In this document: positions 4,645-25,724 of the stretch, one piece after another | How positions within the stretch are numbered: the stretch's first letter is position 1 | Layout of the letters: each line of letters opens with the position of its first letter | Source: Spirogloea muscicola | Taxonomy: Eukaryota; Streptophyta; Zygnematophyceae; Spirogloeales; Spirogloeaceae | Direction of reading: 5' to 3' | Assembly: GCA_009602725.1 (NCBI GenBank) | Contig: WELB01000123.1 | Coordinates: forward strand, 1 to 25,724 | DNA length: 25,724 bases | The notes under the pieces: model-generated | What the model saw: the letters and a program-made list of their open reading frames with translations, nothing else | Database searches by the model: none | What the model was told of the DNA's origin: nothing | Translations under genes and position numbers: made by a program

Positions 4645-4648
<4 letters not shown>

Positions 4649-4709
<61 letters not shown>
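4649..4709. repeat. (CT)n microsatellite, about 61 bases, ending at an N
   Basis: An uninterrupted CT dinucleotide tract runs from 4649 to the ambiguous base at 4710. The N suggests that the true length is unresolved in the assembly. It lies about 330 bp upstream of the proposed first codon of the channel gene. The remainder of 4450-5040 is GC-rich and I see no supportable gene in it. Confidence 0.95.
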
Positions 4710-5041: not shown

Positions 5042-8000
5042 ATGGCGGCCAGAGCGGGCGACCGGTCACAGGAGCTGGTGAGCCAGCGCGAGGGCGAGGA
5101 GGGTGCACCCGTCGACGGCCCGCAGGCACCAGTCGGCTCGGCGGGGCCGGAAGGTTCCGACCTTGCAGCCCACCCACCTCTCTCCTCACCCCCTGCTGAC
5201 TGCCGCCACTGTTGCTGGCTTTTGCTGGGCGCCCATGTCAATTAGTTGGTCGGCTGAGACAACGCTCGGCTGACGGCCACGGGAGGGGGGGGGGGGGTTT
5301 GGTCGGGCTGGTTGTTCCAGCCCCTATTCTCAATGGGCGAGCACTTTCTTCTTGGTCTGCGGCTGGCGGAATGTGCAGACTTCCGCACAGGCCTGGCCTC
5401 CAAGACCGAGACCGACAACCATGGCCAGATCGGGCAGCGCGCCGAGTACGAGTCCGACCAGCCGGCCAGCGAGGACGAGCTGCTCGGTGCGGACTCGCCG
5501 TCGAGCTCCGCCCAGCTCTGCAGCAAAGCGCCATGCCATCGCCCGCCGATCTGATGGCCGTCGGTGGCACTACCGCTGCGCCATCACAGCGGCGGACTCG
5601 CAGCTGCAGGAGCATGGCCACCGGCCGGGAGCAGTCCTCGACGGCGCCGCTGGCAGCGGCAATGGCCAGGACTCACGGTGACCGGCAGCCTCTTTCCTTG
5701 CCTCCTCCCTCCTCCTCCCTTCGCCCCCACCGAGCCAGCGCCCACGCAGCGCCTCGCTGGCCCTCTCGGCTGACCATCCAGCTAGCGAGCGCACGTCTAC
5801 TGTCCAGATCATCCGGACAGCCGCAGCAGCCGGGGACTCGCCTCCGGGCAGTGGCCCGGAAGCTGCGACCATTGGCAGCATTGCGGGGCGTGCGTGACCA
5901 GGTGGAGGCAGGCACCGCCACCGCGCCCGGCGGCGGACCGCTGGGCCCTGACGAGTCGCGGTGAGCGAGCTAGCAAGCGAACAGACGCGGGCGAGCACCG
6001 CCCACCGCCCCATTGCCGCTGCCAGCGACTCGTTCAGCAGTGCCCCCATTTTCGTTTGCCGGTGTCATAGAGCCGACGACCGGGGCCGCTTCTACTCGGA
6101 GGAGGGTGGTGGCCAGCGGCAAGGTGCAAACGAGAATCAGAAGCCGGAGCACCGGTGAGATTGAGCTGCTGCAGCCATTCACCTGCCGCCATGCTCGTGA
6201 CCTTCGTTCTGCTGCCGCTGCCGCTGACGCGGCCGCCTCCACCACCGCTGCCAGCGCTGCATCCGCAGCTCCCTGACTGTTGTTGCCATCGAGAACTGTC
6301 TCTTGCCAGGAACCCCTTTCAGCGATATGTGCAGGAAGGTCAGGGGAAGCGCCGTAGCCATGCTGGTGCCAAGGAAGGCAATGCTGAACGGCCTGCAAGG
6401 TGCGCTCCAGCTCAGCCCTCAGCGCAGCTGGCAGCTGGCAGTGGCGCTCAAACCCTGTCTTGGGTCCTCGCCTTTCTTACTGAGCGGAAGCTGTGGACTG
6501 GGAGCTGCCGCAGCTACCGGCGGGACAACAGCAGCGGCAGCGACTCTGATGGCAGCCACAGGAGCGAGGACGACAAGGAGGAGCGTGGCGCAAAGGCGCG
6601 GCCAGCTCCTCCGCCAGAGGGAAAGCCGTCAGCCATGGGCACCCTGGCGACAGCTCTGGCGCCGCTGCGGGGCCTCCCAGTGGTGCACCCGTTCTCGAGC
6701 TTCCGCCGCGACTTCAACATCGTCATATCCATCATCATCTTCTACAACCTTGTGCGCACCCCCTTGCCCAAGCGACCGTGCTTAAGTTGTGACGCAGGTC
6801 CTGGTCGCTAGCTGGCCCTCGCTGCTGTTGACTGCACTGCTAAGTGTGGGAAACTCATGAGAAGAGCGTGGCTGCTGATCATGTCCTTCAGGTGGAGGCT
6901 CCATACCGCATAGCAATCAACATTGCGCCGACTGGTGGGTGGCTGGCTCTGGACACGACCATCTCGTTCATCCTGCTCGCCGATGTCGTGCTGGGCTTCA
7001 AGACTGGATACGTCAAGCGCGGCGGGTATGACGTCAGCGACGGCGTGCGCGTCCTGCGGCCGCAGCAGGTCATCATGAACCAGGCAAGCATCTGTGCCCC
7101 TGCTGCTGTGCAACGGCGGCAGCATCATGGGCGTGTTTGCCGATTGGGCAGCAGCTGCTCATGACTGCTGCATGCTGCAATCATGCTGATCACTGCCAGC
7201 AGTGCTCTGAGGCCTTGTCTTGCAGAAGCGCATAGTCAAGAACTATCTACGCACGTGGTTCATTGTCGACCTTGCCTCCTCACTGCCAATTGACATCATT
7301 GTCTCCTCGTCGTCCGCGCATGCAAACTGGGTCACCGCCGTGAGCTCCCCCACCCAGTACTGCCGCTGAGTTGGCCCTCTTGCTGTCGACCGCTGAAGAC
7401 TGCTTGCACTACTATTGTAGCCCGTGGACGACTCCTGCTCTCTGGAGTCTACTGCCTGACTGCAGCTTCGACCCAGGATGTGCTGCACCACCTTCGTCCT
7501 CTGTACAGCTCAATGTCATTCCTGAGGCCGAGTCAGACCGCGCTGCCTCTGCTGCTTTCTCTCTTCCGCAGATCTTCAGGCTGCTGAAGTTGCTGCGAAT
7601 ACACCGCATGTTTACAGCCGCATCACAGCTGCGGCAGAGCTGGACATGGACAGAGAAGGAGAGCATTGGCATCCTGCTCATGGTTGTGGGGGTGAGTGCT
7701 GCACTTCCAAGCACAACCTGTCCCAGCACAGAGGATATGTACACTCCAACATACCGCAGCTTCATACACATCCTAGTACTTCATTACTAGAATACTCCTA
7801 CCAGCTATACTACTTCTAACAACCTGATTGTTGCCGCAGTCGTTAGATCTTGAGCATATCTGTGGACCTCAGGCATGACCTCATGGCAATCGTCTCCCAG
7901 GATTTAAGATAGTGCTTCAGCATGAGAGTTGGACAACATCTCTTGACAAATTGATGATCATTGGCAGCTTTGGCGTCCTGGGCCTGCAGATCCTTTTCTA

Positions 8001-10647
8001 CTGCCACGTGATGGCCTGCATCGAAATTCTCATTGGTCGCCTGGAGACGCCACCATCCAGTTGGCTGGATATCACAACGCGTAACTTGGATGGAGTCTCG
8101 GTGCCACTACGCGGCAACACCATGCAGCCATGGGGGGTCATCTATGTCGCAGCCGTCTACTTAATTATGCAGTCGTTTACCTCAGTTAGTAGTCTCTAAC
8201 CCCTGTGCTCAATTCCCTCTGCTTATACTACAATGTCTCAAAGTGACACAATTTTCTGCAATAGTCAACGCTGACACTCCACTTGTCAAGAAGCACAATC
8301 TTGTGGACCATGGCATGCTGCTTCTATGCTGTAACGCCCTGCTCTCAGAGCATACTACCTGAACTCCACATCCTGAACCCTCCTACCCCATCAGGATCTG
8401 AGCAAATTCTCATGCCCTTGGCTGCTTACCAGGTGGGATACGGTGACGTGCACCAAAGCGACACGATCGCGGAGCGGCTCTTCAATGTGTTCTTCAACCT
8501 CTGCAATGCACTCATCCTGAGCTACATCGTTGGGCAGATTGTAAATCTGGTGCAGAATCGTACAACCAAGAAGGAGGCAGTGCGCGAGCGCTTCACAACG
8601 CTGCACAACTTCATTGACAAAGAGGACCTCCCCGAGTGGCTCTCGACGCGCATGGTTGTCCACCTCAGCCGCCAGTGGCAGTCGCAGCTTGGCCAGGGAT
8701 ACAATGAGTACGACCTCATGTCCAGCTTGGGTGTACGTTGACGAGCCCAAAAACTCCATGTCACCAGTACTTTCACAGAATGTGGTCCACAGCCATTTAC
8801 TTGATGATGACGGATCAGTGGTACTCAGTCTTGCTGCGGAATATACCTGACAAGCCATGTACTTCCCAGACCTGTTTCTGACGGTGTGGAAAAGGACTGT
8901 TAAGAAGTGAGTGCTGAGTTACTTGTGTGCAGGATGAGCTCAAGTTGGACCTCTTCGTGCATTGGTGGCGGTCGAATGTTCCCCCTGGGTGAGCTAGCAG
9001 TGCAACTCCTGCCACTGTAGCACTTGTGCAGTCATCTGTTGCATGTGTGCTGTCTTGGGCACTTCAGCTTACGCGATTGTCTTTGTCTTTCAGCCCCCTG
9101 CTGCCGCACAAGTACGGCTTTCTGGAGCGGTTGCAGAACAGCAATCACCTGCAGTTCGTTGCACCTGGTGATTTCATCACGTACGAGGGCGAGGTCACAC
9201 GCCACCTCTATGTAGTCCGCTCTGGCCTGGTGAGCAGCAGACTCCTTGATGCAGGCGCCATCTACCTTGGAACATCACGACACATCTGCCGTACTCCACA
9301 CATTTTTTCTGTCTTATTTCTCTGTTTATTGTCCAGCCTGGCGGCGGAATGAGGTCTTCACATACTGGCATTGGCACAGGTGGATGTTGCAATGTACAAG
9401 CCTGCCAATCAGGCGAAACACCTGCAGAGCTTGGAGGAGACCCCAGCCAAAGACCACAAACTTGAGAATGGGCGGCGGATCCTTGAGGACGACACAGACG
9501 ATCAGCCAGACCGGAGCTCGGGCCTGAAGCAGAAGCTCGAGGCGATGCTACCGCACTCGAGAGAGTCGTCCAGCCGTGGCGGCTCGTGGTACCATGAAAA
9601 GGGCTCCTACTTCCGGGAGCCGACGAGGGGGGAAGAGGCCACATCGCTGGACGCGCAGGGCAGCGTGGCAATCGACCCGTCGCAGGCGGACCATGTGGAG
9701 CTGGGGACGAAGGAAGCCAAGGAGGCTGCGGCAGAGGAGGAGCGGCGGCTGACAGATAACAGCCTGCACCGAGCAGAGGGCCTGGCCACCGAGGCCGAGC
9801 AGTACAGCGGGCACGGCATGGGCCACGCGCTGCACGCCCTGTGGAGCGAGCACAAGGAGAAGGCGGAGCAGAAGGACTCGCATGCCGACGAGTCGGCTCA
9901 CACCGGTGCAGACCCAGCAGAGGGGCCGGCTGAGGAAGCCGACCAGTCTGGAGAAGGTGGCGACCATGGAGGCAGGGGAGCAGCTGACTATGAGGAGCAG
10001 CCAGCGGAGGAGCCAGCAGCTAATGGGCAGAGGGATGAGGAGCCGCGTGAGGGCAACAAGCCCCGGAATAAGCTGGTCCGACTGAAGCGTGTGGGCGTCG
10101 GCGAGGTGATTGGTCTGAAGTCGCTGGAAGTTGCGCTCAAAGCCTCGGCCGGCAGCAATAGCAAGTGGGATGACCAGCGCGCCTCTGCGATAGTGATGCG
10201 CCATAGCACCAGGGTCAGTGTGCCCCCCATCCACTTACCACTCCTTGTTTCTTAGGTGCTCTATACTGCAGGTCCCATTGCATTCCAGTCCATGTCGACG
10301 GTCTTGATGCATTAGTAAGATTCGAATTCATAGCCAGTCATGTCGCTTGCGCAGGCCGTGACAGAGTGCAAGCTGATGGTGATCTTGATTGATGACCTCC
10401 TGGACACACTGGAGGAGTACCCAACCCTCCTCTCTCGCGCTCGAGTACGGGCCAACATACACTTCACAAGCTCAGCACTTCGTCAGAATGCACTCTTTTG
10501 TGGACAGTGCTGCTATGCTTGGTAGTAGCCTGTGACATTGTGAAGTGATTGCTGGCTCTGGGCGCTGCTGTCTTTCAGGTGAGGCTGGGCCTGACAAAGG
10601 GCGAGTCCAGCCTGGCCGAGGGAGCCAACACGGCTGGCGGCGTCTGA
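5042..10647 (+). CDS. Voltage-gated K+ channel with C-terminal CNBD (multi-exon)
   Basis: A six-transmembrane channel subunit of the plant Shaker/CNG/HCN/EAG superfamily, predicted to conduct K+ across a membrane with voltage and possibly cyclic-nucleotide control. Exons I support: 6514-6751, 6892-7083, 7226-7339, 7572-7691, 7921-8184, 8433-8732, 8933-8988, 9094-9229, 9380-10213, 10355-10444, 10579-10647. Together they give about 803 residues. S1 is VISIIIFYNL joined to VEAPYRIAI, S2 ends ADVVLGFKTGYV, S3 is WFIVDLASSLPID, S4 is FRLLKLLRIHRMF, S5 holds the H-x2-AC motif, and the pore is TSVGYGD. A C-linker and a split CNBD follow; the frame stops at 10645-10647. The N-terminus is tentative: ATG 5042 (CGCCATGG context) to 5153, then an exon from 5379, with further small acidic low-complexity exons before 6514. 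The family call is firm; the exons between 5379 and 6514 are not resolved. Confidence 0.88.
5285..5346 (-). repeat. G13 run followed by inverted copy 3 of the hairpin repeat
   Basis: A run of 13 G (5285-5297) is followed by a copy of the dispersed repeat in inverse orientation. GGGCTGG (5305-5311) and CCAGCCC (5317-5323) flank a 5-base loop. About 29 bases (5318-5346) match copy 1 exactly on the opposite strand. The copy lies inside the proposed first intron of the channel gene, close to the acceptor at 5377-5378, so it would be transcribed and could fold in the pre-mRNA. Confidence 0.75.
5379..6513 (+). other. Unresolved N-terminal exons of the channel gene
   Basis: Several stretches read like cytosolic protein but their boundaries are uncertain. 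An acidic segment starts at acceptor 5378 and reads TETDNHGQIGQRAEYESDQP then ASEDELLGADS. LQEHGHRPGAVLDGAAGSGN follows near 5605 and ends at a GTGACC donor. A Gly/Pro segment ends GPLGPDESR at a GTGAGC donor near 5962. The proposed intron 5154-5378 is phase 1 on both sides and would place ATG 5042 upstream. This part is probably a disordered N-terminal tail; transcript evidence would be needed to fix it. Confidence 0.4.
7572..8184 (+). other. Channel S4 voltage sensor, S5 and pore-helix exons
   Basis: Exon 7572-7691 begins with IFRLLKLLRIHRMF. It has R, K, R, R at every third position, the classical S4 gating-charge pattern. Exon 7921-8184 carries S5 with YCHVMACIEILIG (H-x2-AC is typical of S5 in CNBD channels) and the pore helix ending SFTS. 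Exon 7572-7691 ends QSWTWTEKESIGILLMVVG and the next begins HESWTTSLDKLMIIGSF; the two resemble each other. A second good acceptor ahead of 7990 (CCTGGGCCTGCAG) keeps frame and would skip the second copy. Confidence 0.8.
8433..8988 (+). other. Channel selectivity filter, S6 and C-linker exons
   Basis: Exon 8433-8732 starts with VGYGDV. Joined to the previous exon's ...FTS it gives TSVGYGD, the K+ selectivity signature. S6 follows (FFNLCNALILSYIVGQIVNL) and then a C-linker with HNFIDKEDLPEWLSTRMVVH. The exon ends ...DLMSSLG at a GTACGT donor. Exon 8933-8988 continues DELKLDLFVHWWRSNVPPG, the helix leading into the CNBD. Filter spacing predicts K+ selectivity, not the non-selective GYG variants of HCN or the filterless CNG pores. 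Confidence 0.85.
9094..10444 (+). other. CNBD interrupted by an acidic insert
   Basis: Exon 9094-9229 has the first half of a cyclic-nucleotide-binding beta-roll: APGDFITYEGEV then HLYVVRSGL. Exon 9380-10213 continues VDVAMYKP, then runs 222 residues (9404-10069) of Glu/Ala/Asp/Ser-rich low-complexity sequence. It resumes at KLVRLKRVGVGEVIGLKSL and DDQRASAIVM. Exon 10355-10444 gives TECKLMVILIDDLLDTLEEY and the final helix. The conserved GE and Arg of the phosphate-binding cassette are present, but the cassette is longer than usual. Ligand binding is therefore uncertain. Confidence 0.8.
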
Positions 10648-11242
10648 GGTCTCTTGCACACAATTTTCGACGCTGAGGGGTCGACAAGCACACCTGTGCA
10701 GAGGCAGACGCTGGGGCATGTCCCAGCTTGTACCTGATTGGTGCCTGTATGGACTTAGCAACTAAAACAATTCCAAGACATTAACACTTTGACCTAATTA
10801 TCTGCAGCAGAAATATTCACCATGTGAAGTCCTAGATTTTTTAAGTTACTCTTTTGCGCATTGCCTGTAGCATTCTTTCATATATTAGCATACACTTTTG
10901 ATGTTGCCACAATGATTCCATCAAATGCAAAATTTTACAAGGCTTTCTGCTTGCAGTAACCTAAGCACCTGAATGCAGGTAGGGTTGAGTGCCCTAGTAA
11001 CTGCTTACAGTCTGCAGTGAAGTAGCCCGACCACATCTAAGGGTAATGACTGCCTCGCTCTGTTTCCATGTTGGCTGTTTGTTTGCTTGGTCTTGAATAA
11101 AGACTAACTTCCTCCCTGCTGCAAGCCCTGTCACCTTGCACACTAAGAAGTCTAGCAAGTGGTAACAAGTAAAGAGAGAGGGAAGAAAGCCACACGCCTT
11201 AGTCTTCTCCAAGAAGCCCTTTAATGCGCACACCAATTGCTC
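10648..11242. other. Convergent 3' intergenic region
   Basis: This AT-richer stretch between the channel stop (10645-10647) and the coiled-coil gene stop (11243-11245, minus) presumably holds both 3' UTRs. I find no TGTAA signal for the channel on the plus strand. A minus-strand candidate is at 11005-11009. No gene is seen in it. Confidence 0.6.
11005..11009 (-). terminator. Candidate poly(A) signal TGTAA
   Basis: TTACA on the plus strand reads TGTAA on the minus strand, about 234 bases past the coiled-coil gene stop. TGTAA (UGUAA) is the usual poly(A) signal of volvocine and related green algae, so it fits the suspected lineage. A five-base match is weak evidence by itself. Confidence 0.35.
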
Positions 11243-12581
11243 TCATCTGGTTGCACACATTGCAACAGTAGCTGATAAGAAGCTCTGGTAGCCCCTTACA
11301 CCACTATCCTTGATGATGCAAAAGCCAAGTAACCTCCAGTGTGCTTCAAAGTGAGATCTTTATCCAGTAAATAGGACTCACCCCTTTCAGAGAGGCCACT
11401 GCCTCTTTGTGGTGGTCGAGCGCGTCGGCGACCAGTTGCAATTCTGACCGCAGGTCTTCCACTTCGTCACCAAGCAGGCTCACCTGCCGCGTGATTTTGC
11501 AGGGCCAAGTGAGGACAGGCCAATCACTGGCATGCCATATGATTCTTTAAGTGGCGGTTTGGTGCTAAGTCGAAGCTTGCCATTCATGTGCCTAGCTTTT
11601 ACTACCAAGTACCTCCTTCTCAGCTTTTTGTAGATTGGCCAGCAACTTCGACTGCTGTTCCTCTGCTTTTAGTAGCTGCTCATCCCGTATTGACACCCTT
11701 CCAGAAAGAACACAATGTTCAGCTAGCAAGTTAGTACTCTTGAGCATGCCAGTTAAGGCAATGCCAACAGGTATAAGTTGCCCAGACCACATAGACAGTC
11801 GACCCATGCTTGATTGAGTTGCAGTAGAGGCAAGAAACCTCTGTGTCATGTCCTCGTGAGCTTTCTGTATTGCCCTGAGCTTCTCCTCAGACGTACGCTT
11901 GCTCCTTTCGACCTAGCAGGGGTAAGATGTGCTGGTCAAGAAAGGGAAAATGACTACATCATACTGTGCACCCATATTGTACTTGCATCAGCACATGGCA
12001 AGGTGAATAGCACTCACCTTAGCTAGTTCCATCTCTAGCACATGCCTCTGTTTTGTAACATCCTCCTTGGCCTTCTCCACCTTGAGGCACAACTTTGTTA
12101 TCTCTTCCTGTTGCTTAGCATCCTGGGCCTCCTTTACTTTGAGCTCCCTCCTCAGCTCTAGCATCTGCTCTTCTAGCCTGGCCTGAAAACCACACTGTTG
12201 GCGCTTGTTCTCATCGAGCGCCTCTTCCTTCTCCAAGACCTGTTGTCTTAAATTTGAGATAACCTGTACTTTCTCGATTACTTCCACCACCTTTTCAGCC
12301 AGTGCAGTGGTCAACTCATGTACAGAGCCTTCCAAGGATTGAGTATGTATTCTGCTTGTTGTTAACTCTCTTTGGGACTCAGCAAGTTGGGCCTCCTTTG
12401 CTTGGACTGCCTCAGCCAATGTAACTACCTCACTCTGCAAACTCGAATTCTCGTGGACTTGTGCCTGCAGTTGTAGCTGCATCTGAGCTTTCAGATCCGC
12501 AAGCTCCTCGCCACTTTGCTGGAGAGCTGATCTCTCTGCTGCCAACTGTGCTGCAGCATTATCGTGCAGCTCCTCCAGACT
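11243..12581 (-). other. Coiled-coil gene, C-terminal exon group
   Basis: Exons in transcript order: 12581-12018 (188 residues of continuous coiled coil, including LEEQMLELRRELKVKEAQDA), 11912-11839, 11697-11613, 11483-11382, 11284-11243. For the first, the acceptor TGTACTGTTAAAGCAG is chosen because it keeps phase with NVFLTK; the nearer TTTGCAG at 12601 would shift frame into a stop. The 74-nt and 85-nt exons share a split codon (AG/G). The last exon reads SFLSATVAMCATR and stops. Confidence 0.8.
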
Positions 12582-15500
12582 CTGCTTTAACAGTACAGAA
12601 CTGCAAAGAGCATAAGCGTTGCAGGGCAGACAGAAAAAATAGGGCAAAGTACCACCATTGAGGGCTAAGTCCTTATACGCAATGCATAAGTATATCACAA
12701 ATACCTTGGTGAGGAAGACATTCCTGTCTGAAGCAGCTGCTAGGTCCACTTTGATTCTGTCCAGATCTGCTATAGCACTCCTAGTTTTTGAACAGCTTGA
12801 AGCAATCTCTTTGTCTTTCGTATTTGCTAGTGCCTGGAGGTGACAGGAAGTAGCTTACAGGTCAGCCCAGGAATTTAAGATGCTGTTATAGTGCGCTAGG
12901 AATTTTTCGCAATATTCGTTGTCAGTAGAAGTTGCCACTGTTCTAGCCAGGAAGGTGTCTGCACTAACCTGCAATGATGTGAAGAGAAGTAGATGGAAAA
13001 TTTTCATGCACACACTCTGGTGCTGAAGAAGCTTCTGAATACAGTGCTCTTGCTTGAGCTCTGCATTAGTACGAGCATTGCCCATCTCTTTCAACTGAGC
13101 CACCTCTGACAGCAACGCCTGTCGAAGGACACACCACAAGAACACTTAGTAAAACCTTGAGGATCCAGTAGGTATGACATCTATCATCTGATTTCACGTA
13201 GGCCTCTTCACACAGCCAGAGAATTCCTTTTTATAAGGCTTTGGAATATGCTGCCTTGAGCATGCTCAGCACCTCATTTTGCAGCTGAAGCTCCTTGCCG
13301 TACCGCACTTGCACGCCAGCCTCCAGTCCCATGTACTCGTCAAGCTGATCAATCTCCTTTCGCAGCCTGAACTAGCCTTTGCAAAGTGAGCACCAACTTG
13401 ATGCAGCAAGTCAGCAACAGGTATGCTGCACTGGGAGGAACTTCTGCAGACTCATGTTAAGTAGGTGAGCCTGTGACAATGTTGTGGACCTTCTGTAGCC
13501 GGCCTTGAAGCGTTCTGCATCCTCATTCAAATTCTGTATGATCTCCTGGGAGGCTCTGTCCCTTGACTCGAGCTCCCTTTGATGTGCAGTCTGCATTAGG
13601 GAGGCAGGCAAATTATTACGCTGGACTAGCATGCTGGCTTGTGACGTGCTCAGCACCACCTCCGAGCTGCCGACAGTGTCCTTTACTAGCTTGATTGCAT
13701 GGGGGTATGGATACTTGGACCATTTTACATGCATGTATGACTGCAGTCAGGCAGGTTGATAAGATCGAATAGTACATGGCACATAGCGATATCAGCAGTC
13801 ATGACATACCTGCAACAAGAGCATGGCAACCCTCCCTTCTTCTTCAGCGACCCGCTTCGCGTTTTCCTGGTCTACTAACTCCTCTCTCAAACTGATGTTC
13901 CTAGCAGGAAAGACATCAACAAGATCACTGCACATGGAGCCTTGTGGCTTGCGTGCCGAGCCCATGCCCATTTTGTGTTGTTTTGTTGCTGTTTTTGAGG
14001 GTGTCGATGAGAGAAGCGCTTTTCACAATCGCTTACTGCTAGAGCCAGTATGAGCAAGCAATGTTGCTCTTACCTTGATACGGAAGTTCCAAGCATTGCC
14101 TTCTGTTGAACAAGCGCCGCAATCTCAGCAGCAGATGTCGATCTTTCCTGCATTGCTGATGTACTAAGATGCTCCACCTGATCCAGACTCAGGAGCACGT
14201 AAGACATGGCATCAATCATAAAGCTTCAGATGGCAGTGTTGGTCATAGGCAAAGCTTCAGGATATACACCTTGCAAAGAGCAGCTTCAGCATCCTCAGAC
14301 TGATCCTGTAGTGCGCCTAGACAAGCCTGCAGATCATTGCAACCACTAGACTGTCAGCTTTCCTGATTGCATGTTGCTGTCAGGACAATGTTGCTGTAAA
14401 TTTGACATGACTGTGCAGATTGCAATCCATGCACGGACCTCAAGGAGCTCCTTCGCAGTTTGTAGCTCATTCAGAAGATTGGCCTTCTCCTCCATGTGGA
14501 CCACCATGCTCTCTTGTTCCCTGGCCTTGTTGTTCTGGCCGTTTGCCAACCGAGCCCATGTGCAAGAGGACATCATCAAGAGTCAGCCAGACTCGGTTTT
14601 TGTAGAGCAATATTAATCTCTGCTTGTACCAAGTATCCTGTACAGGCGTGACAGAATGAAAATGCCATTTGGATGACTTCAGAGCGCTCACATCAGCTTC
14701 AAGGCAGAAGAGCTTCTCCAGGTCCACTACAATACTCCTGAACTGCAGGACATCAGTCATATCAACAAAAGTCAGCAGTGGCAATTGAGATAAGGATGTA
14801 CCTTCAGCACAGATACTGCTTGGTGCAAGAAGCTGGGTGCAAGAAGGCAACTTCTGAAAAGACTATTGTTGCTTAACTCGGCGGTTAGGACAGTAATGAG
14901 CTTTATTGTTACCTGCTCTACCAGCTGCATGGCTGACCGAAGCTGATCAGCCACCTGCCCTTTTTCTTGCATCAGCTCCACAATGCGAGCCTGCTTCTGG
15001 AAAGCCTGGAAATTAGCAATCTCGTTCAATGTGAGCCAATCGCTTCTCTTTTCTCCACCATTTATACTAACAAGAAAGTTGCTGTTAGAAAATTTTCTAT
15101 AGACCTCTAAATGACACTGTAAGTTGCATAGTTTTGTGACTGACCTCCTGTTGTGCTGCTGCAAGCAGATTGTTTAATTGACTGAGCCCCATCTCAACAA
15201 TCTCCAGCTGTTTCTCGGACGCATCCTTTGGGATGCCCATCTCTTGCTTTTCTGCCTGGGAGGTTTGAATGATGTCAATTTGATCATGCAGCTGAGTATA
15301 TATCAGGTCAACATAGCAAGGGCCAGGAAAAACAACAGTCAAGCCTTGACCTTTTGCAGGTTTTGCACCTCGTGGCCAGGCACGAGCGAGCTACCGACCT
15401 GAGACTCCGACCAGACAGTGCTTGTTGCTGTCTGCAGCTCGCATCGTCCTCCCAGTGGCTTCTCTGACTTTGACTCGAATAATACTTGCTCGGTACCATC

Positions 15501-18500
15501 TGGAAATCGTGCACACGCAGTTGCCTGGCACGTGGAAGAGCAACAAAGATAAAGTGGGCACACAGGCCCCTGCTGAATGAATCTTGGGTTCTTTTGTGTT
15601 CAGGTATTACCTGTACGAATCTGGTGCACATGAGCATACATGACAATGACACCGCAGCTGTCCACTAGAAGTACCTGATTCTCTGCAACCTCTACTAGTT
15701 TCCGAAGAGCCCTAAGCTCTGCACACTGCCAATCCTCATGCCTGACGTTAGGTTCTGTGCATTTCACCTTGGGGAATTATAGATCCTTTTCAAGCAGACA
15801 GGAGACCTTCAGCATATGAGGACAAGATAAAGCCCATGCGCTGCTCATGATGTCTTACTTTCTCGTTCAGACTAACGGAGGATTGTAGAGTCTGTTGCAA
15901 TTGTATCCTTTCACTATTGAGTAGCGCATGTGCTTCATGCTGTTGTATCTGCAGGATGTCAGCGTACAACACGTTATCAACTATGGCAAGTCCTGGATAA
16001 GAGCAGACACAATGTGGCTTTCAGGATGTGACAGTACCTCTGCCTGTGTGCAGCAAATTATGCGCTGAGCTTTTTGGAGACCATCTTCAGTTTCTTCTGT
16101 CATTTGTGCTGCCAGAAAGAGCTCACACACAGCGTCTCCAGCTTCTGCCATGGTTGCACTTATCTCCTTCTCCTTCAGCTTCCCAGACCCACAAATCCTA
16201 GCAGAATTTACTTATATTGACAGACAGGCTGCAGGACTACAAGCTCATCAGCAGATGTGACGGTCCAAAACACGCAACTTTTTAGCAGCTATCCATTCTT
16301 CAAGTGCTCCAAAGCTACTGGCGTGTATGATTCTGATGTCTCCTACCTTTGGTTGTTGAGCATATTACACCTATTTAGGCCATCATATACGGCTCAGCCG
16401 TGCCCAAGTACTAATACTCATTAAGGTATTGGTCGACTGTCTGTTGCATTCACCTCAAGAGTAGCATTCATCTCCTCGAGTCGCACACGAAGATCCTTGA
16501 TATCCCATGCTGCTGTCTGGTACTTGTGCTGAGAAGAGTATATAAAATGCAATAATCTCATTTGGCAGGGCTGTGCAATGGAAGAAACAGTGAAGCGAGA
16601 CCAGATTTTGCAGTCAGCTTGTTGGGCGAGCTACACCCGACTGTCCTTTACCTCAGTTGCTGCAATCTGCTGTGTATGTCTGTAAATTAAGTCTGCAGTG
16701 GCTTGCATGTTCATTGTCTGCAGCTGTTCCAACTCCTCTGATTTCTGCAAACAGACACATGCATCAGTAGGTGTCAAAGGGTATGACAAACTTGTCACAA
16801 TTTTGGCCTGCTTCTGGCAGTTTCATCTACACTTCTTCATGGAAGTTTCATTGATTCTGTGAGCAGGAGGACAAGTGAAGCATGCACTAGCTAACACCTC
16901 GGCCTCTGCCAGTACCTATGCACCTGAATATTCTTCAGTTGCAGTGTACACTGCATATTTGGCTTCTTACTGAGTTGGCAAAATTGCAAAACAAAGCGTG
17001 CTTCCCCTAACCTGCTTCACTAAGCATTGCAGCTCAGTTTGCAGCTGTGTGATAAATGACCCAGCCTCTTCTTGCCGTCCAGCGGATTCTGCTTCAGTGA
17101 AAGAGAGACAGTCTTGCAACCTGTTGCAAGTCTCTAAGCGACTAATAGACTGAGCTGCTGATTCCAATTGATCTTTCAGTTCTTCAATTACCTATCAATC
17201 AGCATCAACGAGGTCATAGGTCAAGTCTAGGTACTGCTCAGGGGCCCTCCACGTCCTACTTGTGATTGTTATTTTAGCAACTATAGAAGCATGGGTATGC
17301 TAATCCTAAGTGCCTGCACGGTCATGGCTCCAGACAGATATGTTGTAAGACATTGATGATGCTGGCATGGAACAGCCAATAAATCCGAAATATTTGCAAC
17401 ATGTAAAAGTGGCATTGGCTGCCCTTAATTTTCTGTAGAAGCTATTAGGCAATACCAGCAAGGATTACCTGGACATAGCATGCGTTTTCAAACTCGAGTC
17501 TCCTCGCCACACCTTGGCTAGCATAGGTCGCCTGCTCCAAGTACTCTTTGTGGTCCCTCTGCACTTTCAGAGAAACCTGTAGCTCACCAACAACATCTAG
17601 AAGGCCTCCTGTTCTAACAGGGTGTGATGGTAGCTTCGATGCCCCTGTATTTGACGTCAGTAGACACTGTTGGCCAACTTGGGATGCTGCCAAGGCCTGC
17701 TTCAGCTGCTCCACCTCCCTCCGCAGTAGATTTTCGACTTCTTCCCTGGCAGCTAGTAGCTCCTCCTTCTCCTCTACCAGTTCCCTCATGCGCTCCTCTG
17801 ATGCATGCGCAAGACGATTGAGCTGTTCCGGCAGCTTAGCATTCTCCTTGTGTGCTTTGTCAAGGACCTTCTGCAACTTGACGACCTCCAGTTGCAGCAT
17901 GTTTCGCTCATCACGTACAGCCTCCAATTCTCTTTGAGCCTTATAAGCCTTTCCTGCACCTGCAACTGCCTCTGCCAAGAGCTTGTTTGCGAGCTTTCCC
18001 TGCTGCTCATCCTGTCTAACCTCAAAGATGATATCCACTGCTGAGATTGCTGTGGTATTCTGGCTAAGCTGCCTTACCGGCGTCTGCGTCGTCCGGCTGT
18101 TCTCATTGTTCGAAGTGTCACCGGCAAGTTGTTGGAGGCCAAGTGGGTAAGTACACACTCTCTCATACTCGGAGTAGGACACCTCTTGCCAAACTGCATG
18201 GTTTGACAGCAGGCAACACATATCTGCTACTCCTCGCGCTTTCTCCTGTTGCCACAGTCCCTCTGCTAAGTGCAGTTGCAGGGCCTGGCACATGGTGGAC
18301 GCAGGGCTTCCAAGTACTGATCTGGTCTTGTGAGAACCCCAAGCACCTTCTTGAGCATCTGATCCTACTCTCTCATCCTTCGTGACTCTGCTTCTGTCTG
18401 CGGGGCATCAATGCAACCATAGAGTCAACTGCAGCTCCTACCATTAACCCAGTAGCTATGATTACGAGGACATCTTATGGATTCAAGTAGAGCCTGTCCG

Positions 18501-21662: not shown

Positions 21663-24280
21663 ATGGCTGGCCGTCGCTTGCAGGCGGCGGAGAGGGCGGC
21701 CGCGCGGCAGCTCTGGTGCGTGCCACCAGCGACGGCCGCTGTGCCGTGGCCTGTGCCAAGGTCAGGCGCTCGCGTGCATGGAACCGCCGCCACCATCGAG
21801 TCCTGGAGACTGCCTCCTACTGCCCATGGCGGGCATGGTGCTGCTCGAGGCCTTCCTGGATCACCGCTGCAGCTGAACGCTGAGGACGGCCCCGAGCGGG
21901 ACGAGGAGGCGATGGTCCTGCTCCCTTCTTCGATTGCCGAGCAGCATCCGGTGGCTGCTGCCTGCCGCCGCTGCATGTGCTGCTGCTGTCGGGCCTCACT
22001 TTGTTCACCTGCCATGTCGCAGCAGCTCAACCCTTTTGCGCTCGTCGAGGAAGAGCTTGCTATGCTGGCCAAGCGCATGCGCACCATGGTGTCATCCGAG
22101 GTGCGCCCGCTGCATATTCCAACACCTCATGGCCACTGCCTCTAGTGTCATAGCGGAGCTGCAAGGCCTCAGGCAGGAACACTCCGTCACGACAGAGGAT
22201 GACTTTGAAGGTCTGACAGCTTTCTGAAAGGGCGTCGGGGCAGGTGCCGAAGCTCGCCACAGCGGCAGAGTACTTCTTTGGCCTCAACGCGCAGGGCAAA
22301 CGCTTCCGGCCAGCGGTGAGGTCGGGCCCCGTATTTTGCTTTCGGCAGTGGGAGTGGCCGCCGTGCAGCAGCCTTTCCACCGAGCACCAGCTGCTTGACT
22401 GATGGGTCTGCACGTGTGCCACGGTGCAGGTGCTGCTGCTCATGGCTTCAGCATTCTCTGGAGTAGCTGTGCCGCCTGTCAGGCCGCCCTTGGTGCAGCC
22501 CTGGGACGACCTCCTGAGGCAGCGTGAGCGGCAGCAGCGTATCGCTGAAATTACCGAGATGATTCACGTGAGCTTGTACCTCTGCCTGACTGCGTTGTAA
22601 ACCCTGTCGTGGTTGTAGCTGCTACATTGCCTTGGCAGCCTTTGGCGGGGTGTTGTCGTCAATCTGGCCACGAGACCACTGGGATACAATATCGTCCGCC
22701 CCCTCCACCACGCAGGTTGCGAGCTTGCTGCATGATGACGTTCTGGACCTTGCTGAGACTCGTCGGGGCGTCAAGTCGCTCAATTATCTCATGGGCAACA
22801 AGGTGCGGGTTTTGGTCTGATTGCTGGCTACATTCCTACACAAAGTGTCACAACAGCTGCTTCGACTTGTTGCACCCGCCTTGGGCCAGTGCCGTCTGCA
22901 GCGTGAAGTCCATGCCAGAATACCATAACGCTTTGTAGCTACGCGACTGTGGGTGGCAGCTGGCAGTGCTGGCGGGCGACTTCCTGCTGGCGAGAGCCTC
23001 CGTGGCTCTGGCGTCGCTGCAGAACACGGACGTGGTGGAGCTCCTCTCGCGCGTGCTCGAGCACCTCGTGTCTGGAGAGATCATGCAGATGACTGCCGAG
23101 CCCCACCAGTGCTGCAGGTGACGGAGGGTTGCCTGCTCCCTACCTCACACGTAAGAATGCAGAAAGCCTGCACTGAGAGGAGAGCCCAACCTCACGAGCG
23201 TTAGCTACCAACGAGCTTTGCTGAAATCAAAGGCTGCATTCTTTCAGCTATCTCTTAGCTTCTATCTTGGTGCTTTCAACGACTTGATTACGTGCTGAGC
23301 TTCATATTGCAGTCTTAACATTCATAACTGTGTGTGGGGCAGCATGGAGTACTACCTGCACAAGACCTTCTGCAAGACGGGCTCGCTCATCGCTAATGGC
23401 TGCAAGGCGGTGGCAATTCTTGGCAACCAGCCGCCGGCTGTGGCAGAGCTGGCATACAGCTATGGGCGGCACCTTGGGCTTGCATTTCAGCTTGTTGATG
23501 ACGCACTCGACTTCACAGGCTCGCTGGTGACACTAGGCAAGCCCGCGCTGTCGGATCTGCGCCAGGGCCTCGCCACAGCGCCCACACTGCTGGCGGCTGA
23601 GGAGTATCCAGCCATGCTCGACCTTGTGCGCCGCAAATTCGTCTCCCCTGGCGATATAGATCAGGTATTGCATATTATGTACTCCTCTGGCGCCTCATGT
23701 TCCGGCGCTCATTCAGCCAAAGAGAAGGAGCGCGAGGATCTTATTGCCTCTTGTGCATTCCTATGGGCAGGCGCTGGCGTGGGTGCGAGACAGCCGTGGA
23801 ATTGAGCGGACCCACCAGCTGGCAGCAGAGCACGCTGCCAAGGCTGCTGCAGCCGTTGATGCATTCCCGCCAGCTGCCTCAGATAATGCAGGCACGCTGC
23901 CCCTCTGCCTCGTGCTCGGTCAATGGGCCTCAATTATCTTTTCCTCACCTTCTGTCCTCCACTTTCTCTTCGAGCCACTTAGTGCCTTTGCACCAATTTT
24001 GCTAACACTAGAAATTGTCAGTAGAGTGGAGTTCGCCCTATGCCTTCTGCCATTAGAATGCTATATGCTCTGCAGAAGGTAAGGCGTCTGAGTTGTCGAG
24101 CTCTCTGCAACATGCTTGTATCACCCTCCACGCCCTCCACTCAGGGCAGTTTGCTTACTGCCACTGTGGACTGCACTACTTACCCCCGTTGATTTGCCTG
24201 TGTGTTCTTTTTTGTTGTTAGCCCTATGCCGGCGGGCGCTTTTGCAGATGACGCAGTTAGTGCTGACGCGTACAAAGTGA
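21663..24280 (+). CDS. SPS: Solanesyl diphosphate synthase-type long-chain prenyl transferase
   Basis: A trans-prenyltransferase that adds isopentenyl diphosphate units to an allylic primer, making the side-chain precursor of plastoquinone or ubiquinone in plastid or mitochondrion. Exons: 22023-22100, 22244-22315, 22430-22567, 22716-22802, 22960-23117, 23343-23664, 23771-23891, 24222-24280. The 344-residue core has GKRFRP, the first aspartate motif LLHDDVLDLAETRRG, GDFLLARASVALASL, the second motif LAFQLVDDALDFTG, and C-terminus RALLQMTQLVLTRTK. Ala sits five residues before the first Asp, as in long-chain enzymes. The exon ending 23891 uses a GC donor (CAG/GCACGC); a GT donor after 23918 also keeps phase. 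The N-terminus is tentative: ATG 21663 (GCCATGG) is in frame through 22100 and begins with an Arg/Ala-rich, targeting-like stretch (MAGRRLQAAERAAARQLW), but an intron may interrupt 21750-22022. Plastid and mitochondrial isoforms cannot be told apart here. Confidence 0.9.
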
Positions 24281-24518: not shown

Positions 24519-25724
24519 TTAACGGTGCACTTGGAAGGCATGACTGACTGAATAACTTAATGCAGTGATTTGATGAAGGTTCCTGCCTTGCGAGGGGGCG
24601 TGTGGCACGTGGCCTAGCATCCGTGCCTCTGTTGTGAGGTATGGGTTGGAAACGGGAGGGATCTTGATGAGACTAAGCCCTACTTCACAGATCGAATGTG
24701 AAAGCTCTGGCCCGTGCATGGTGAGCAGAACTGCGTCCAAGCAGCTCTCATGCTGGGGCTGCAAGGCAAGCAATGCAGTATTAGCAATGGTGCTCCATTC
24801 AAGTGATGTCGGTCACTAGGAAGGCAGTATTACTTCTTGGAAGGACAGTGAGTTACCTCAACCCTCATAACTCAGAGCTTGACATTTAAAGCCGAGAGCA
24901 TACACAAATTGCAGAAGAGATGATGGGTGCAAGAAAGGGCAGTTGGGCAGGTAGAATGCATGAAAGCGGGTGGGGTGGCTTGGGTGGGGGCACTTACAGC
25001 AGACTAGGCCATTGCCTGTGAAGTTGGCATTGCAGGTGCAGATGGGGTTGCAGTTGGTGGGGTCGTCATCATCCACACATGTTGCATTGGGGTCGCAGGG
25101 ATCCAGGCTGCAAGGATCGCAACCTGCGGACCGCAACGTGATGGTGGCACAGTGGTGACTGACTTGAGAACATGATCGAATGCTGACAACATGGTGGTGA
25201 AAGGGTAGGGAAGCTCACTGCAGGCGACTCCGTCGCCATAGTAGCCAGCATTACAGAAGCACTTGGATCCGCAGTTGCCGTTGTCGATGCACGTGGCGTT
25301 GCCATCGCACATAGCGACCTGGCAGGGCAGGCACTCTGGGCAGCGGCAGCCACGCTCTCAGGTGACCCGTCAGAGTGGCTCCCTCAGAGAGGAGGCAAAA
25401 GAGCGTGAAAGAGGGAGGCAAAAGGGGGGGGGGATGAGTCCCCACCGCATCTGCCGGTGCTAGTGGGGAAGAAGCCATATCTGCAGGTGCAGGTGGCGGT
25501 GCAGTCGCCATTGTCGACGCAAGTCGAGTTGCCATCGCAACTGTTGCAAGGATCGCAGGCTGCACTCCAGCAGGCGTGCCGGGAAGCGCCGCACAGACAA
25601 GTTAGCAGTTGCTTCTGAGCCGGTGGTGGAGCGGCGAGCTGGCAGAAGAGGCGCTGGCAATGGGAGAGCTTACGTGGTGGGGGGGCGACTGGGGGTGGCG
25701 GTGGCGAGAGGAGCGGCGGCGGAG
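24519..25724 (-). CDS. EGF-like repeat protein with proline-rich segment (partial)
   Basis: A probable secreted or surface protein whose 5' end lies beyond the right edge. Exons in transcript order: Pro-rich 25724-25674 (ends phase 1 at GTAAGC); EGF-like module 1, 25559-25446; module 2, 25335-25219; module 3, 25123-24998; candidate last exon 24758-24519 ending in a stop. Each module has eight cysteines around a C-[DG]-x-N-[AS]-T-C-[VI]-D core: CDGNSTCVDNGDC, CDGNATCIDNGNCGSKCFCN, CDPNATCVDDDD. Modules 2 and 3 end GYYGDGVAC and FTGNGLVC, the EGF G-x-G-x-C ending. All three module exons are phase 1 at both ends. The last exon (QHESCLDAVLLTMHGPELSH) fits phase but has no recognisable domain. A cell-wall or extracellular-matrix role is plausible but inferred. 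Confidence 0.8.

Follow-up and report, generated by a model that had tools for sequence, protein, structure and literature searches.

In plant Kv channels, the cyclic-nucleotide-binding domain (CNBD) is described as being in an active position even in the absence of cyclic nucleotide, and as critical for tetramerisation, and partner proteins bind to the C-terminal ankyrin and KHA regions (PMC8644596). In engineered sensors, the loop between strands beta4 and beta5 of the CNBD serves as an insertion site. In G-Flamp1, cpGFP lies between Pro285 and Asn286 of the MlotiK1 CNBD, with a structure bound to cyclic AMP (cAMP) at 2.2 Å; its linkers were screened, and its dissociation constant is 2.17 µM, compared with 0.066 µM for a Förster resonance energy transfer (FRET) sensor with the same CNBD (PMC9468011). 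In cAMPinG1, cpGFP was placed in the beta4-beta5 loop of PKA-RIalpha, a site picked as near cAMP, exposed and flexible (PMC11093745). A eukaryote-wide survey of CNBD channels describes an oomycete CNBD without beta5-8 and the phosphate-binding cassette, and dinoflagellate CNBDs without some strands; the word 'insertion' is absent from its main text (PMC7576140). In the literature searched, outside which most subscription journals lie, we came across no CNBD channel reported to have a large natural insertion between beta4 and beta5. Here, we describe such a candidate in Spirogloea muscicola, in a stretch of 25,724 nucleotides (contig WELB01000123.1, positions 1 to 25,724; hereafter the window), where a plus-strand gene is predicted to encode a K+ channel whose CNBD is interrupted in this loop by a 222-residue acidic insert.

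The insert was found at 9404-10069, within predicted exon 9 (9380-10213, 834 nt), as a preliminary description of this DNA had placed it. It comprises 666 nt, or 222 codons, and its plus-strand frame is in phase with both flanks. Only one of its six frames is free of stops (plus frame 0), and the same frame stayed open in 5 of 2000 dinucleotide shuffles. The GC content of the insert is 65.3%, as compared with 46-59% across the ten introns of the gene model, and the GC values at the three codon positions (.73/.47/.76) follow the same pattern as those of the other exons (.57/.39/.75). The codon-choice score of the plus frame (18.9) was reached by none of 2000 shuffles (mean -51.3, standard deviation 12.8). 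At the level of the sequence, the insert is genuine, and its placement in one open exon is a prediction.

To place possible splice sites, exon 9 was scanned for in-frame GT/GC-AG pairs of at least 60 nt with a splice-site profile trained on the ten unverified introns of the model, each of which was scored without itself in training. Pairs with a donor no later than 9460 and an acceptor no earlier than 10000, which would excise most of the insert, scored at most 3.9, below all ten modelled introns (5.0-19.6), and the insert was rejected as an intron on this ground. It seems to us very unlikely that the main transcript splices out all or part of 9404-10069 and so restores a CNBD loop of normal or shorter length, as the GC content of the insert is exon-like and its frame is open throughout. 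In favor of such splicing, the profile rests on only ten introns, and an internal in-frame GC-AG pair at 9846-9983 (138 nt, 46 residues) scores 12.8. Since this score resembles those of the modelled introns, a shorter isoform is possible; its excision would still leave 176 residues of the insert.

The position of the insert within the domain was examined by comparison with 83 CNBDs, namely 80 bacterial loci together with MlotiK1, HCN2 and CRP. The bacterial loci, the best 80 of 451 confirmed, were found with an alignment of the latter three. This selection favours MlotiK1-like domains that have kept FGE intact and disfavours large insertions, and it understates natural variation because it was made with patterns that in part demand FGE, and through similarity to MlotiK1. 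The interval from the conserved Val of beta4 to the Gly of beta5 is 235 residues here, as compared with 10-19 in all 83 CNBDs (12 in HCN2 and 17 in CRP), which bears out the earlier statement that the interrupted site is normally a short loop between strands. Among solved chains (60 of 163 rows listed), the matched span extends at most 8 residues beyond that of HCN2, the CNGA chains having 8 more; such span tables are a rough guide, as a large insertion may cause the search to report one chain in separate pieces, as happened with 6m63. The interval and the span tables together place the insert in the beta4-beta5 loop and far outside the comparison sets.

The two flanks matched the CNBD family to different degrees, clearly in the N-terminal half and weakly in the C-terminal one. 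The match to PF00027 (cNMP_binding), at E 1.1e-4, was confined to residues 409-440 and to positions 3-34 of the 89 in the profile; its score of 22.6 bits is below the curated cut-off of 27.5. Against a profile of the 83 sequences, the N-terminal half scored 18.7 bits at positions 15-57 and the C-terminal half 6.1 bits at positions 85-114, a score reached by 1 of 2000 shuffles (1768 reported). When the C-terminal half alone was compared with PDB at E<=10, 16 matches were obtained, of which 14 were HCN and one was KCNH, all 15 being CNBDs at the homologous site, and one was unrelated. The order and places of the flanks fit one interrupted domain. The claim that both halves keep family residues holds for the flanks, which match the CNBD in order (the C-terminal one weakly), but not for the phosphate-binding cassette, which the profile does not recognise.

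The gene was modelled on the plus strand at 6635-10647, with 11 exons and 763 amino acids without internal stops; nine of its ten introns are GT-AG and one, after 7083, is GC-AG. The features of the model are as follows.

6635..6751, plus strand: exon 1, start of S1 (spliced model; PDB alignments begin at about residue 12-20)
6892-7083, 7226-7339, 7572-7691 and 7921-8184, plus strand: exons 2-5, S1-S5 and pore helix (spliced model; Pfam Ion_trans)
8433..8732, plus strand: exon 6, VGYGD of the K+ selectivity filter, S6 and start of the C-linker (Pfam Ion_trans_2, E 1.9e-7)
8933..8988, plus strand: exon 7, C-linker (spliced model; aligned to KCNH5 and HCN1)
9094..9229, plus strand: exon 8, first CNBD helix and beta1-beta3, PLLPHKYGF...LYVVRSGL (PF00027 and our own CNBD profile)
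9380..9403, plus strand: beta4 (VDVAMYKP), start of exon 9 (spliced model, Pfam and our own CNBD profile)
9404..10069, plus strand: acidic insert of 222 codons in the beta4-beta5 loop, within exon 9
9677..9892, plus strand: possible helical core of the insert (single-sequence AlphaFold2, weak)
10070..10213, plus strand: presumed beta5, phosphate-binding cassette and beta6 (by eye; exon 9 ends at 10213 or 10192)
10355..10444, plus strand: exon 10, beta7-beta8 and alphaB, AVTECKLMVILIDDLLDTLEEYPTLLSRA (PDB matches of the C-terminal half; positions 85-114 of our own profile)
10579..10647, plus strand: exon 11, predicted short alphaC, C-terminus and stop (spliced model)

The modelled protein is, on sequence evidence, a six-transmembrane CNBD-family K+ channel with a C-linker. 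Pfam Ion_trans matched residues 27-316 (E 8e-18), indicating that the six-transmembrane domain is present, and the selectivity filter, read over the junction of exons 5 and 6, is TSVGYGD, of the TVGYG type. In a PDB search with the whole channel (best 60 of 109 distinct sequences at E<=0.1), the closest chains by sequence among the matches listed were KCNH5 (E 4e-28), HCN1 (3e-27) and KCNH1, after which the plant matches ranked, namely AKT5 (5e-21), AKT1, KAT3 and KAT1. Most of the listed alignments span the C-linker into the CNBD and stop at residue 435-442. The intron at 9230-9379 separates exon 8 from exon 9, and VRSGL followed by VDVAMYKP reads across it. After the insert, exon 9 runs on into KLVRLKRVGVGEVIGLKSL.

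Several boundaries of the model are candidates. The putative Met at 6635 is a candidate start, as the open frame continues upstream to 6071 with a further Met at 6191. The predicted junction of exons 4 and 5 is uncertain (7692-7968): the acceptor before 7921 places HESWTTSLDKLMII in S5, and the modelled S5 looks longer than that of relatives; by eye, there was no cleaner in-frame acceptor. The donor of exon 9 may lie after 10213 (AGG/GTCAGT, splice score 3.3) or after 10192 (ATA/GTGATG, -0.2), of which the latter gives an HCN-like distance from the cassette Arg to beta7 and LEEYP and a profile score of 7.8 as compared with 5.8 bits. In the predicted last exons, 29 residues follow LEEYP of alphaB, about 12 of them ahead of TKGESS. 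Pfam recognised no ankyrin or KHA domain after the CNBD, and no PAS-type domain in either the modelled protein or the upstream frame; downstream, the longest open stretch on the plus strand at 10648-11300 is 43 codons. As separate observations, intron 2 (7084-7225) is apparently the GC-AG one (CAG/GCAAGC), and the frame upstream of the modelled Met (6071-6634) carries a second acidic, Ser-rich stretch (RRDNSSGSDSDGSHRSEDDKEER), resembling the insert in style.

We examined whether the domain would still bind a ligand from the cassette, in which Gly-Glu (10100-10105) and Arg (10178-10180) were located by eye. Counted in this way, 24 residues separate the Glu from the Arg, as compared with 8 in 81 and 9 in 2 of the 83 CNBDs. 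The preliminary description had the cassette about 15 residues longer than usual, and its arithmetic was right, but the stretch itself scores like shuffled sequence: the cassette sub-profile gave -1.5 bits, and 1754 of 5000 shuffles (3746 reported) scored at least as high. The power of this test was gauged with 12 known cassettes, those of HCN2, CRP and 10 bacterial loci out of the 80, each left out of the profile in turn; all 12 scored 16.1-46.7 bits, with none of 500 shuffles as high for each. In KAT1, of the plant Kv group, the cassette reached 0.2 bits, and 180 of 5000 shuffles were as high. Given these two results, the cassette of this channel resembles the plant Kv group rather than ligand-binding CNBDs, and the left-out control strengthens the case for ligand independence. 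The degenerate cassette, together with the predicted short last helix, makes a ligand-independent role such as that in plant Kv channels the likeliest one.

The insert had also been taken as a possible sign that ligand binding is lost. This no longer holds, as engineered insertions at the same loop retain binding, G-Flamp1 more weakly; because sensors with insertions there still bind cAMP, the insert alone shows neither lost folding nor lost binding. On the sequence, the degenerate cassette appears the better sign of lost ligand binding. Another explanation is decay of the CNBD: both the insert and the degenerate cassette would mark a domain that has lost its fold and is left as a mere tail of a working pore. 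The unrecognisable cassette, the weak match of the C-terminal half and the short predicted alphaC are consistent with decay, and CNBDs missing strands or the cassette have eukaryotic precedents in the survey cited above (PMC7576140). However, the last strands and alphaB stay HCN-like (STRAVTECKLMVILIDDLLDTLEEYP), where drift would be expected in an unconstrained sequence, and the 763 codons carry neither a stop nor a frameshift. Moreover, KAT1, with an equally poor cassette score, belongs to the plant Kv channels with solved, folded CNBDs. We regard decay of the domain as improbable.

The composition of the insert suggests a largely disordered segment. The 223-residue run formed by the insert and the preceding Pro contains 51 acidic and 26 basic residues and 13 His, with a net charge of about -25, and consists of 15% E, 13% A, 10% G, 8% S and 8% D. 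The insert has 35% charged and 12% large hydrophobic residues, and its FoldIndex is -0.31, as compared with about +0.2 in both CNBD flanks. Low complexity is confined to its second half: 64 thirty-residue windows fell below 3.2 bits of entropy, all with starts at residues 540-666, and 61 of the 64 lie within the insert. Single-sequence AlphaFold2, run on exon 9 alone, left most of the insert unstructured (mean predicted local distance difference test score, pLDDT, 56; predicted template modelling score, pTM, 0.21). At low overall confidence, it proposed helices at 9677-9805 and 9818-9892 (block pLDDT 59-87), which is weak evidence, and, at 9587-9616, a short pair of strands (block pLDDT 77). 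The amphipathicity of the helical part is ordinary, being reached by 71 of 1000 shuffles. The large disordered lobe of the preliminary description is upheld as probable for most of the insert, with the reservation, raised by these weakly predicted helices, that it may not be disordered throughout. Internal repeats were considered as the origin of the insert and set aside, since one 36-nt pair at 75% and one 24-base two-copy repeat are too little to argue from.

The insert matched nothing in Pfam, and nothing in PDB at E<=10. These negative results bear on the possibility that it is a module dedicated to regulation or docking, which would act through phosphorylation, partner binding or an effect of its charge on gating, and would replace the C-terminal ankyrin repeats and acidic KHA region. 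In plant Kv channels partners bind at these regions (PMC8644596), whereas neither is recognised after the CNBD here; in addition, the loop is near the ligand pocket, engineered insertions in it couple to the state of the CNBD, and the insert has a possible helical core. This has to be weighed against the absence of any domain match, the low complexity of the second half and the ordinary helical amphipathicity, and we hold a dedicated module to be possible but doubtful. A more specific proposal, that the lobe is an evolved counterpart of the cpGFP insertions, with the gating ring sensing its binding or phosphorylation in place of cyclic nucleotide and ankyrin/KHA input, is unlikely in our judgment. 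Long low-complexity inserts occur in many algal proteins. As to the lobe itself, we lean modestly towards a tolerated lineage-specific expansion rather than a docking or phosphorylation surface.

Taken together, the explanation that we prefer, with some confidence, is that of a channel with a natural 222-residue insertion in a CNBD loop, in which the flanks form one beta-roll that is mainly ligand-independent and carries a mostly disordered acidic lobe. We infer that the insert is translated as a natural coding insertion in the beta4-beta5 surface loop of an otherwise intact six-transmembrane CNBD-family K+ channel, and that, most likely, the sequences on its two sides continue to form a single beta-roll. 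In the cytoplasmic gating ring and the tetramer, this beta-roll would mainly play a ligand-independent part, as is described for plant Kv channels. The lobe, acidic and mostly disordered with perhaps a helical segment, would hang off the outer face in four copies per channel.

Several observations weigh against this explanation. Three minus-strand frames of the insert score 38.0 to 46.7 in codon choice, above the plus frame, so that codon choice leaves the strand undecided. The internal GC-AG pair at 9846-9983 lies inside the range of the modelled introns. The C-terminal half has no Pfam match, its stretch gets only 1.2 bits when scored within the full protein, and each of its 15 CNBD matches in PDB is weak (E 0.57-1.9), all being close relatives. 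The AlphaFold2 input was exon 9 alone, beta1-beta3 being encoded in another exon. The sensors were optimised by screening and G-Flamp1 lost affinity, so that they speak for tolerance of a natural insert only by analogy. Finally, searches gave no confirmed relative for exon 6 and exon 9 among viral contigs, or for exon 6 among genome contigs; as these collections, by their descriptions, comprise viruses, bacteria and archaea, the result says nothing on absence in algae.

On the minus strand, two open stretches, 9195-10019 (274 codons) and 9548-10234 (228 codons), overlap the insert; they are probably shadows of GC-rich coding DNA. Elsewhere in the window, a polyprenyl synthetase exon was found on the plus strand at 23299-23802 (PF00348, E 4.4e-24). 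EGF-like repeats lie on the minus strand at 24858-25357 (PF12947, E 2.9e-5 and 2.2e-4, below the curated cut-off), whose product is possibly a secreted or cell-surface protein. The minus strand at 11592-18407 holds several open stretches rich in Glu, Lys, Leu and Gln, coiled-coil-like by eye; three of them gave no Pfam match at E<=0.01. A perfect (CT)31 microsatellite at 4648-4709 adjoins an unresolved base.

At the sequence level, the locus presents a natural interruption of a CNBD in a loop also used by sensor engineers. If the insert is expressed and conserved, the beta4-beta5 loop would be a natural regulatory entry point of CNBD channels, and the case could inform both the design of sensors and the biology of algal channels. 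Were it no more than a tolerated expansion, the insert would be a modest curiosity on the robustness of the beta-roll.

Compared with known systems, the channel shares six helices, a VGYG-type filter, the C-linker and the CNBD with the plant Kv (KAT, AKT, SKOR, GORK) and KCNH (EAG/ERG) channels, and a poorly scoring cassette with the plant Kv channel KAT1. It differs from the plant Kv channels in its long CNBD, the CNBD span being within 1 residue of that of KAT1 in 21 plant Kv chains (39 rows in all; KCNH loops lie outside this comparison), and in that no KHA region or ankyrin repeats are recognised here, whereas the plant members have the former and, except KAT1, the latter. With HCN channels it shares the overall architecture and the sequence from beta7 to alphaB; in contrast, the HCN2 cassette is compact and recognised (22.5 bits when left out; 8 residues from Glu to Arg), whereas that of this channel has 24 residues and is unrecognised. 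The sensors G-Flamp1 (6M63) and cAMPinG1 resemble it in that the same beta4-beta5 loop of their CNBD holds a long segment, cpGFP, of about 240 residues; in our alignment, the G-Flamp1 site, with SVSVATP before and NPVELGPG after the break, corresponds to LVDVAMYKP followed by the insert. In the sensors, however, the segment is an artificial, folded beta-barrel, optimised by screening with cAMP binding kept, whereas here it is natural, acidic and probably disordered. Against this background, the insert appears to make a genuine, if modest, variant of a type of channel already known.

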